Shown: piece by piece, positions 32,779 through 34,948 of the stretch
How the letters are laid out: every line of letters starts with the position of its first letter
Position numbering within the stretch: the first letter of the stretch is position 1
Assembly (NCBI GenBank): GCA_021846285.1
Contig: JAJZCB010000032.1
Coordinates: forward strand, 1 to 36,752
DNA from: Bacillota bacterium
GTDB taxonomy: Bacteria > Bacillota > Bacilli > Alicyclobacillales > SLC66
Length of the DNA: 36,752 nucleotides
Direction: 5' to 3'
The notes under the pieces: model-generated
What the model was told of the DNA's origin: nothing
Databases searched by the model: none
The model's input: only the letters and a program-made list of their open reading frames with translations
Program-made: the position numbers and the translations under genes

Positions 32779-33060
32779 TTACTGCGCGTTTTGCACCGGG
32801 TCGCGCGCGCCAAACTCCCGTTCGTATCGTTTTTTGGTCGCTTCACCGCCTCTAATGTGCCGTACAGCCTTATGCTCTACCAGAATAGCCTGCGCCTGCC
32901 TGGCCAGTTGGAAGTCGATGTCGGGCAGGCGCTCTTTGACGTCGCGAAAAACCGTGTTCTTTGACACGCCAAAATGGCGGCCTGTTTCTCGTATCGTAGC
33001 GCCCGATGACACTATGTATTCGCCAATCAAAATGGCGCGTTCACGGAGATGATCGTGCAA
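32779..33060 (-). CDS. spoIIID: Sporulation transcription factor SpoIIID
   Basis: This 93-residue protein matches SpoIIID in length and layout. HDHLRERAILIGEYIVSSGATIRETGRHFGVSKNTVFRDVKERLP (about 2-46) is the helix-turn-helix, and the basic C-terminal helix contains HIRGGEATKKRYE (about 68-80). SpoIIID acts in the mother cell under sigma-E to repress and activate sporulation genes. The TTG start has AGGGGG upstream. The gene is convergent with the aminopeptidase gene, four bases apart. Its neighbours are not the spoIIQ or mbl genes seen beside it in many relatives. I could not identify a sigma-E promoter. Confidence 0.95.
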   Translation of the reverse strand: MHDHLRERAILIGEYIVSSGATIRETGRHFGVSKNTVFRDVKERLPDIDFQLARQAQAILVEHKAVRHIRGGEATKKRYEREFGARDPVQNAQ

Positions 33061-33229: not shown

Positions 33230-33379
33230 GGGATAGACATCCATGCTGCTTCGCAGCACCATCAATTGATGAAAAACCCGCTTGGCTGGGATCGTATACT
33301 GTGCCGAGGCGAGTTCGGCGCAGCCGTGTTTGAGCAGCGGCACAGTATACGATCCCGGCGGGCAGGGAAGGTATTTTCC
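33230..33379. repeat. Tandem structured repeat, unit 1 (150 bp)
   Basis: The unit starts with GGGATAGAC, then a hairpin TGCTGC-TTC-GCAGCA (33244-33258), CCATCA, a CATC/GATG pair and GATGAAAA. A perfect 19-bp stem follows, 33288-33306 pairing with 33338-33356, enclosing a 31-nt loop. It ends with GGCAGGG and TATTTTC. Two more G-C pairs and a wobble extend the long stem outward. The next unit begins exactly 150 bp later with the same GGGATAGAC. Confidence 0.85.
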
Positions 33380-33570
33380 GGGATAGACGACCATGCCGCG
33401 CGCGGCACCATCAGCAGGATGAAAAGGCGCCGCGAGTTTTTCACTGGTGCGAAGCCCGCTCCGGGAGGAGTCATATATTGTGCCCGTCGCGAGTTTAGCG
33501 ACAGCGGTGTCTGAGCAGGGGCACAATATATGACTCCGACCAGCAGGGGCCATCATTATTTTCGGGGTAG
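33380..33570. repeat. Tandem structured repeat, unit 2 (about 190 bp)
   Basis: The same order of parts is present: GGGATAGAC, hairpin TGCCGC-GC-GCGGCA (33394-33407), CCATCA, CATC/GATG and GATGAAAA. An insertion of about 28 bp follows, then a perfect 19-bp stem (33467-33485 with 33519-33537) around a 33-nt loop, GCAGGGG and TATTTTCGGGGTAG. The loop shares GCGAGTT, CAGC, GTGT and TGAGCAG with unit 1. Stem bases differ from unit 1 at five pairs, all compensated. Confidence 0.85.
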
Positions 33571-33604: not shown

Positions 33605-34876
33605 TTAAACACCGTCGATCGTGGATGCGCCCGCTATGACGGTGTTCACTGCCCGTTTATGGCGTACCTGCTGCGCGCCGTTGATCATGAACAGCACAGT
33701 CGCCAGCACGGTTGTTATAGATGTAATTCCCAGGATAGGCGTTAGACCCCATACATCAAATATATTGCCGAATAAAACAGGGCCCACCAGACGGCCAAGG
33801 CTTCCAAAACCTCCGACGACCCCCAGGTAGAATGGCGCGGAACTGCCCGTGGTGCGCGTGATCAGCGCCGGAACGGTGGGGTTGATCAGCATTTCGCCAA
33901 ATGTGCCCAGCACCATGCCGATCACGAAATACACGTAAGAACCGTGAAAGGCAAACATGTAGGTAAAACACGCCGCGTACAGCAGGCCGCTTGCAATCAG
34001 TCTCGCGTTCAGGCTTTTGGTGATGAAGCGGTTTAGCACTGTCGTGACTGGCTGGCCGACAAGGATGATCAGGCCGTTGATCGTCCAAAGAAAACTGTAG
34101 CTGGTCAGACTCATGCCTTTCTGGTTCAGATAGGGCGCCACACTCGAAGTCCAGGCAGACGTGGAAAACCAGATCATCATCAATCCGAGCGCTACAAACA
34201 GGTAGAGATGATACTGCGTCAGCAGCTTCCTGGTGCTGAGTTCCTCACTATGCGGAGACAGACTCACCTGCAGGGCATCCGCGTCGCCAATATCCGTGCG
34301 ACTGAGAAACACATAGAAAAAACCGCCAAACAGAATCGTGGACAGACCGTTAAGGGCAAATGTGAGATTGAAAGAAATCGCGGCCAATAACCCCGCCAGA
34401 GACGTTCCAAGTGCGACCCCGATGTTGTTGGCTACATAGACGACATTAAACAGACGCACCTGCTGCTCACGCCAACGAAAGCCAATGAACGCGTTGACAG
34501 CGGGCATCGTGATCGACATAAGAAAACCGACGACAGTCATGGCGCATATGTAGGGAATCCACGACTTGGCGACAATCAGGCATAACAGGGCCAGGCCTGT
34601 GAGCAGCAATGAGCCGACGATCAGACGTTTGGCCCCCAGTCGATGGAACAGCGCTCCCCCAGCCAGTTGACCAAGAATGCCCGCAGATGACTGAAACAGC
34701 AGAACCAGGCCAGCCTCGCCATAGGATCGGTGCAATATGTTGTGGACGTAGATTGTTGTGAGCGGCCACATTAAAGCGCTCCCGGTGGAGTTTACGAGAC
34801 TGGCCAGAATAAACACGTATGACTCTCGTGGATAAGAGCGGATAGAGGGCAAGACCGGACTTAGCAGGCGTTTCAT
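33605..34876 (-). CDS. MFS transporter
   Basis: This 423-residue membrane protein has about twelve hydrophobic segments in two halves with a loop near the middle (DIGDADALQVSLSPHSEELSTRKLL, about 190-215). The loop 2-3 motif of major facilitator proteins is visible as GGALFHRLGAKRLIVGS (about 73-89). It looks like a drug-efflux or sugar-exporter type 12-helix carrier; the substrate is not evident. The ATG at 34876 was chosen with GGGAG upstream, over a GTG four codons earlier that overlaps the SD. It is single, with an inverted repeat about 70 bp upstream and the structured repeats just after its stop. Confidence 0.85.
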   Translation of the reverse strand: MKRLLSPVLPSIRSYPRESYVFILASLVNSTGSALMWPLTTIYVHNILHRSYGEAGLVLLFQSSAGILGQLAGGALFHRLGAKRLIVGSLLLTGLALLCLIVAKSWIPYICAMTVVGFLMSITMPAVNAFIGFRWREQQVRLFNVVYVANNIGVALGTSLAGLLAAISFNLTFALNGLSTILFGGFFYVFLSRTDIGDADALQVSLSPHSEELSTRKLLTQYHLYLFVALGLMMIWFSTSAWTSSVAPYLNQKGMSLTSYSFLWTINGLIILVGQPVTTVLNRFITKSLNARLIASGLLYAACFTYMFAFHGSYVYFVIGMVLGTFGEMLINPTVPALITRTTGSSAPFYLGVVGGFGSLGRLVGPVLFGNIFDVWGLTPILGITSITTVLATVLFMINGAQQVRHKRAVNTVIAGASTIDGV

Positions 34877-34948
34877 GAAGCAGGGCACTCCCAGTGAGAT
34901 CAGACTTGCAGGCTGCGCGGCGGAGCATCAACAGTATCGCATATAAAG

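Follow-up and report, generated by a model that had tools for sequence, protein, structure and literature searches.

A dispersed, gene-less mobile element with covarying hairpins and a proposed IS200/IS605-like working in an uncultured Bacillota family

What maintains two neighbouring DNA units, the hairpin stems of which are perfect and at the same time different in sequence? This question is raised by positions 33230-33570 of a 36,752-nt stretch of a Bacillota bacterium (contig JAJZCB010000032.1; the whole stretch is termed the window). Initially, a conserved covarying structure arranged as a local repeat was proposed. The covarying structure held, but the local repeat did not, since the unit is a dispersed, insertion-polymorphic mobile element.

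Direct reading of the sequence gave two adjoining units (Table 1). The two perfect 19-bp stems were confirmed base for base, together with their differences at pairs 3, 4, 7, 12 and 19 (counted from outside), all of which are compensated, and one additional covarying pair, T-A or C-G, distinguishes the small hairpins of the two units. The loop and end motifs that both units had been said to share are present as well. The order of parts in the proposed unit layout was also correct, but the boundary falls 3′ of GGGATAG and unit 2 contains an insert of about 30 nt. Inserts of this kind are found in other copies of the element, and unit 2 looks composite, as its insert resembles the right-end hairpin of the short form of the element described below. 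Folding of both units is unusually stable (z -7.9 for unit 1 and -5.0 for unit 2), with 0 of 200 shuffles being as stable in each case.

Table 1. Features of the tandem pair and its neighbourhood (positions in the window).
Feature	Position	Strand	Basis
SpoIIID-like gene	32779-33060	-	profile score just below curated cut-off
GGGATAG motif of the target type, immediately 5′ of unit 1	33230-33236	+	sequence
Unit 1, full-length element of the long form (150 nt), ACATCCATG to ...TATTTTCCGGGATAG	33237-33386	+	parsed elements; filled/empty orthologous sites elsewhere
Unit 1 left-end small hairpin, GCTGC-TTC-GCAGC	33245-33257	+	sequence, folding
Unit 1 long right-end hairpin, 31-nt conserved apical loop	33288-33356	+	folding; covariation in homologues
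Unit 1 stem arms, GGGATCGTATACTGTGCCG / CGGCACAGTATACGATCCC	33288-33306 / 33338-33356	+	
GGGATAG, closing unit 1 on its 3′ side; unit 2 starts behind it	33380-33386	+	sequence, parsed elements
Unit 2, full-length element of the long form (184 nt) with an extra insert, terminating in TTTTCGGGGTAG	33387-33570	+	parsed elements
Unit 2 left-end small hairpin, GCCGC-GC-GCGGC	33395-33406	+	sequence
Unit 2 extra insert of ~30 nt (GGCGCCGCGAGTTTTTC...), inside right end, limits approximate	33422-33451	+	alignment with unit 1
Unit 2 long right-end hairpin, 33-nt apical loop	33467-33537	+	folding; covariance model matches
Unit 2 stem arms, GGAGTCATATATTGTGCCC / GGGCACAATATATGACTCC	33467-33485 / 33519-33537	+	
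MFS-type transporter gene, neighbour of the tandem	33605-34888	-	

Both searches that the original prediction had proposed, for dispersed copies and with a covariance model, were positive. As a DNA query, unit 1 matched its own genome 62 times, in some cases with 99% identity over about 146 nt, and R1, a covariance model built on the long hairpin, gave 139 rows, which after dropping reverse-strand echoes correspond to about 120 distinct long-form places in the 3.9-Mb genome. At least 43 further matches represent the short form, which is devoid of the long hairpin. Two congeners, one of them deposited as GenBank JAJZEE01 ('Bacillota bacterium isolate JA6.bin5'), hold at least 99 and 92 covariance-model matches, and genomes of two other genera of the family hold 12 (G005) and 34 (G010). 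A broader model (R2) was positive in 5 of 59 genomes of the order and, in a sample of 398 genomes of the phylum, recovered the own genome and two single weak matches. A match in genome G322 looks like chance. No relative was found in IMG/VR with the loop/core pattern or among phage and plasmid records with the window DNA. As had been anticipated, no RNA family is recognised: Rfam gave 0 matches at gathering score, and permissive thresholds yielded only sub-threshold matches, mostly to miRNA families. The copies are predominantly intergenic (90 of 98). Since the two-copy pattern recurs in more than 100 copies with strong covariation, it does not result from chance.

The ends of the element were established by comparing about 1.0 Mb of the own genome with 0.7 Mb of genome G001, the syntenic blocks of which are about 95% identical. 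Several orthologous sites are filled in one genome and empty in the other, with precise ends, as judged from these two genomes alone. At L109:5287 the own genome contains a 93-nt element, TTTGTATAG/ACTTCCATG...CCGGGATAG/AGCG, where G001 has the empty site TTTGTATAG/GGCG (slashes mark the borders). Further sites filled in the own genome and empty in G001 are L085:9815 (155 nt) and L098:2104, and L173 is the mirror case, filled in G001 and empty in the own genome. The element extends from A[CT]NNCCATG to TTTT[TC]CGGGATAG, its consensus form being A[CT]NNCCATG...TTTTCGGGATAG, and it lies immediately 3′ of an ATAG/ACAG-type site that existed beforehand, the motif in which it also terminates. In 43 parsed copies the final AG of the left motif is nearly invariant and A[TC]AG is usual, located 8-9 nt from the left hairpin; the G010 copies that were read have GTAG instead. 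Both units and the parsed copies have a hairpin near either end, a small one on the left and another on the right. In the short form, which is 67-70 nt long, the small left hairpin is combined with GAAAAAT-ACGCCTGCGGCG-ATTTTTC, while in the long form this inner hairpin is replaced by the hairpin with a 19-bp stem, the ends being common to both forms. Head-to-tail arrays occur.

Could these ends belong to a MITE of the conventional kind, for which a DDE transposase would duplicate a short and strongly preferred target (ATAG/ACAG)? The 4-mer is indeed present at both ends, and in L085 and L094 the rarer C is common to the left and right motifs. However, of 8 copies with the rarer C at the left site, 5 have T at the end of the element itself (ATAG), and such mostly unmatched motifs at variable positions argue for a preferred site rather than a target duplication. 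The element also lacks terminal inverted repeats and its motif is the same everywhere, so that a conventional MITE is very unlikely.

The covarying stem that had been proposed on two sequences was also found in the wider set of copies. Among 34 diverse copies from five genomes, two-sided changes occur at 16 of the 19 stem pairs, 87.3% of the cells in the stem and the inner mini-helix are paired, and covariation scores 0.553 versus 0.207 (sd 0.014) for shuffled and at most 0.136 for slid alignments. When 174 distinct long hairpins of three congeners were aligned by sequence, 96.4% of stem positions paired as compared to 86.4% with right arms swapped; for 87 distinct stems the values were 95.2% and, with right arms swapped between copies, 83.7%. 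The apical loop is more conserved than the stem, with invariant letters within GCGAGTT...GCG...TGAGCAG, and the G010 copies combine a largely different stem (e.g., CGCCCGTGTCCCTTTGCTC) with the same loop class. Of the outcomes named beforehand as contrary to a conserved structure, none was seen: further copies exist, homologues stay paired and Rfam gives no match at gathering score. This is also a warning that textbook covariation can stem from a mobile DNA element and not from an RNA gene.

How stem perfection is maintained is a separate matter. It may be neutral, if within a mobile element a polymerase switches template inside the hairpin and, together with conversion, copies one arm onto the other. 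Template switching can yield and keep perfect stems along with multi-base compensatory changes (PMC8794818), and the orthologues L089 and L142 show an apparent double change AT>CG with one other substitution. Only 3 of 45 orthologous pairs are identical (some pairings inside arrays may be wrong), and in several others the entire hairpin subtype is different; such wholesale swaps fit neutral copying and, because orthologous sites carry different subtypes, they point to exchange or conversion between copies, indicating that this also acts. At L122:9800-10350 of the own genome and L172:9500-10050 of G001, three long hairpins are chained without left ends between them and the orthologous site has different subtypes, suggesting exchange among copies. 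The unrelated-looking genome G087 likewise has arrays in which perfect hairpins combine variable stems with a conserved loop. On the other hand, 15 of 19 one-sided stem changes between low-divergence orthologues keep pairing through G-T, against a random expectation of 0.17-0.33 (changes unpolarised, classes copied by hand from the orthologue comparison); the G-T states suggest stepwise change, and the inner mini-helix and the loop are conserved too. These one-sided changes favour structure-preserving change, though template switching can do likewise, and template-switch repair may help to keep the stems perfect. Wholly neutral stems are possible, if rather doubtful, and the caveat on hairpin-templated repair attached to the original prediction stands, as selection is not separated from template-switch maintenance. 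Strongly covarying stems in genomes that are about 95% identical make a rare natural set in which selection and template-switch copying of perfect hairpins can be set against each other.

The orientation of the copies is strongly biased. The element lies on the G-rich strand in 69 of 79 clusters of the own genome and in 44 of 52 of G001, as would be expected from use of the hairpin strand on the lagging-strand template. A first reading, in which orientation follows replication, was weakened by a larger test of gene context. Where genes run with the G-rich strand the elements divide 81:6, and within co-directional gene pairs the long element is sense in 49 cases and antisense in 8. Convergent and divergent gaps, however, give 19:16 on the G-rich strand, co-directional genes on the C-rich strand have 5 elements in the same and 6 in the opposite direction, and these contexts pooled give about 25:21. 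Neither pure transcription nor pure replication explains the orientation, as the bias follows neither cleanly.

The sense preference leads to the question whether the element acts at the level of RNA, i.e., whether it is a domesticated or selfish sequence, the transcribed hairpins of which are terminators, mRNA stabilisers or small RNAs, so that both structure and orientation are kept. In agreement with this, the right end of the short form resembles an intrinsic terminator (CGCCTGCGGCG-ATTTTTC) and G-T pairs are tolerated. Pure transcription, however, predicts a sense preference also for co-directional genes of the C-rich strand, where it is gone. Moreover, precise presence or absence at conserved genes shows that the element is dispensable there, and Rfam gave no match. 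Maintenance at the RNA level thus appears unlikely.

The explanation to which we lean, with modest confidence, is a non-autonomous, gene-less mobile element working like IS200/IS605-type single-strand transposition, the window containing two adjacent copies. The element would move as single-stranded DNA, a Y1 (HUH) transposase provided in trans would recognise the folded hairpins and cut 3′ of ATAG at each end, and the excised strand would be pasted 3′ of another ATAG. Since the element's own end recreates the target motif, later copies may land behind earlier ones, which would give head-to-tail tandems such as 33237-33570. The right-end hairpin is exchangeable between a small terminator-like stem (67-70-nt form) and a 19-bp stem (long form), and the stem letters are free provided that they pair. 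The loop is conserved, probably for being read by the transposition protein or by some other factor that binds it.

In IS200/IS605 elements, guide tetranucleotides located 5′ of the hairpin feet interact with the cleavage sites. The ends of these elements are described as having a hairpin close to either terminus, with a conserved tetranucleotide beside the left end and a fixed one as the last bases of the right end (PMC6006769). The element shares with this group and its non-autonomous derivatives, exemplified by IS608 and ISDra2 (PMC6006769), the two hairpins close to the termini, the insertion 3′ of a conserved tetranucleotide with no duplication, a fixed tetranucleotide as its last bases and, overall though mixed between gene contexts, a strand-biased orientation. 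It differs in the stem of at least 19 bp and the conserved loop of 31-38 nt, whereas IS200/IS605 hairpins typically have 20-25 nt, and in the exchangeable types of its right-end hairpin. REPs measure 20-40 bp (21-65 nt), have stems of 5-13 bp, at the foot of which GTAG/CGTC is located, and are mostly arranged as inverted dimers (PMC3733652, PMC6006769). Like REP, BIME and REPIN sequences with their RAYT, the element is high-copy, intergenic and hairpin-forming, has complementary stem changes and is possibly moved by Y1 in trans, but it is about 70-190 nt long with a 19-bp stem, occurs in head-to-tail arrays and has the motif A[TC]AG at a distance from the left hairpin instead of GTAG/GTGG or CGTC at its foot. 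No RAYT gene flanked by repeats was found; the nearest case is a decayed IS605-type tnpA directly 3′ of an array ending GGATAG (G002, L217:1132-1866), which was considered and rejected as an autonomous copy.

A further dispersed repeat, bcr1 of Bacillus cereus, has a target duplication. As far as it can be compared by description, bcr1 is like the element a dispersed intergenic Bacillota repeat of about 150 nt with a conserved fold and mobile character, and unlike the element it is described as specific to the B. cereus group (PMC2267715).

Which protein drives the element? A linked IS200/IS605 or REP-associated transposase had been suggested, but among the PF01797 matches of five element-bearing genomes, which are incomplete drafts with some copies cut by contig ends, no Y1 transposase with the element's ends was found. 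These matches are ordinary IS200/IS605 copies or fragments, and those with readable ends have other left ends and the targets TTAC/TCAC; G010 has only two PF01797 fragments beside its 34 element matches. An intact IS200/IS605 TnpA at C5 and the other Y1 copies were rejected as drivers, since their ends and neighbours mismatch. A Y2 (IS91-type) driver was rejected as well, the Y2 family (PF04986) being present in only 2 of the 5 element-bearing genomes and absent from G001, G005 and G010. Long pairs of left and right ends, considered as transposase carriers, hold a dienelactone-hydrolase-like gene or ordinary genes only, and no transposase-bearing copy was seen in 1.7 Mb inspected. The driver may lie in unread sequence, have been lost or be of an unrecognised type. 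At L167:1-413 of G001 (minus strand), a left end runs into the beginning of an IS607-like MerR/serine-recombinase gene, where the contig ends; this is probably an IS607 insertion into a copy of the element.

The element is thus a real, recently mobile, non-autonomous, hairpin-ended one with a probable IS200/IS605-like working. It is not assigned to IS200/IS605, since the genomes surveyed gave no transposase that shares its ends and the strand-bias result is mixed. What is unusual about it is that the right-end hairpin can be exchanged, that a large conserved loop sits on a stem of free sequence and that the driver is missing. An undescribed class of single-strand mobile elements, recognised through a conserved large apical loop on such a stem, interchangeable right-end cassettes and a protein outside the Y1/Y2 families, is of low probability. 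A high-copy, recently active, gene-less mobile family is added in an uncultured Bacillota family, and with exact ends, target and empty sites given, the driver can be looked for.

Other hairpin-bearing sequences were encountered during this work. A distant match in G087, a genome of another Bacillota family, was followed as a possible relative and proved to be a separate hairpin-array family: its loci (L294 and L302-L321) have many long hairpins with GTTTGACAAGCCTGTCTAAG as conserved loop, on stems that vary but are nearly perfect. They are arranged in tandem, and a single inverted copy often forms the border of the array. An insert of about 155 nt with inverted ends (GAGGTTGTTCAAAAAGGGGTCAG-like), present or absent between the own genome (L084:4746-4909) and G001 (L148:4472-4628), looks like a MITE. 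Two other small hairpin inserts at CTAG, at L149:1048-1106 of G001 and L105:9508-9610 of the own genome, are each present in one genome only.
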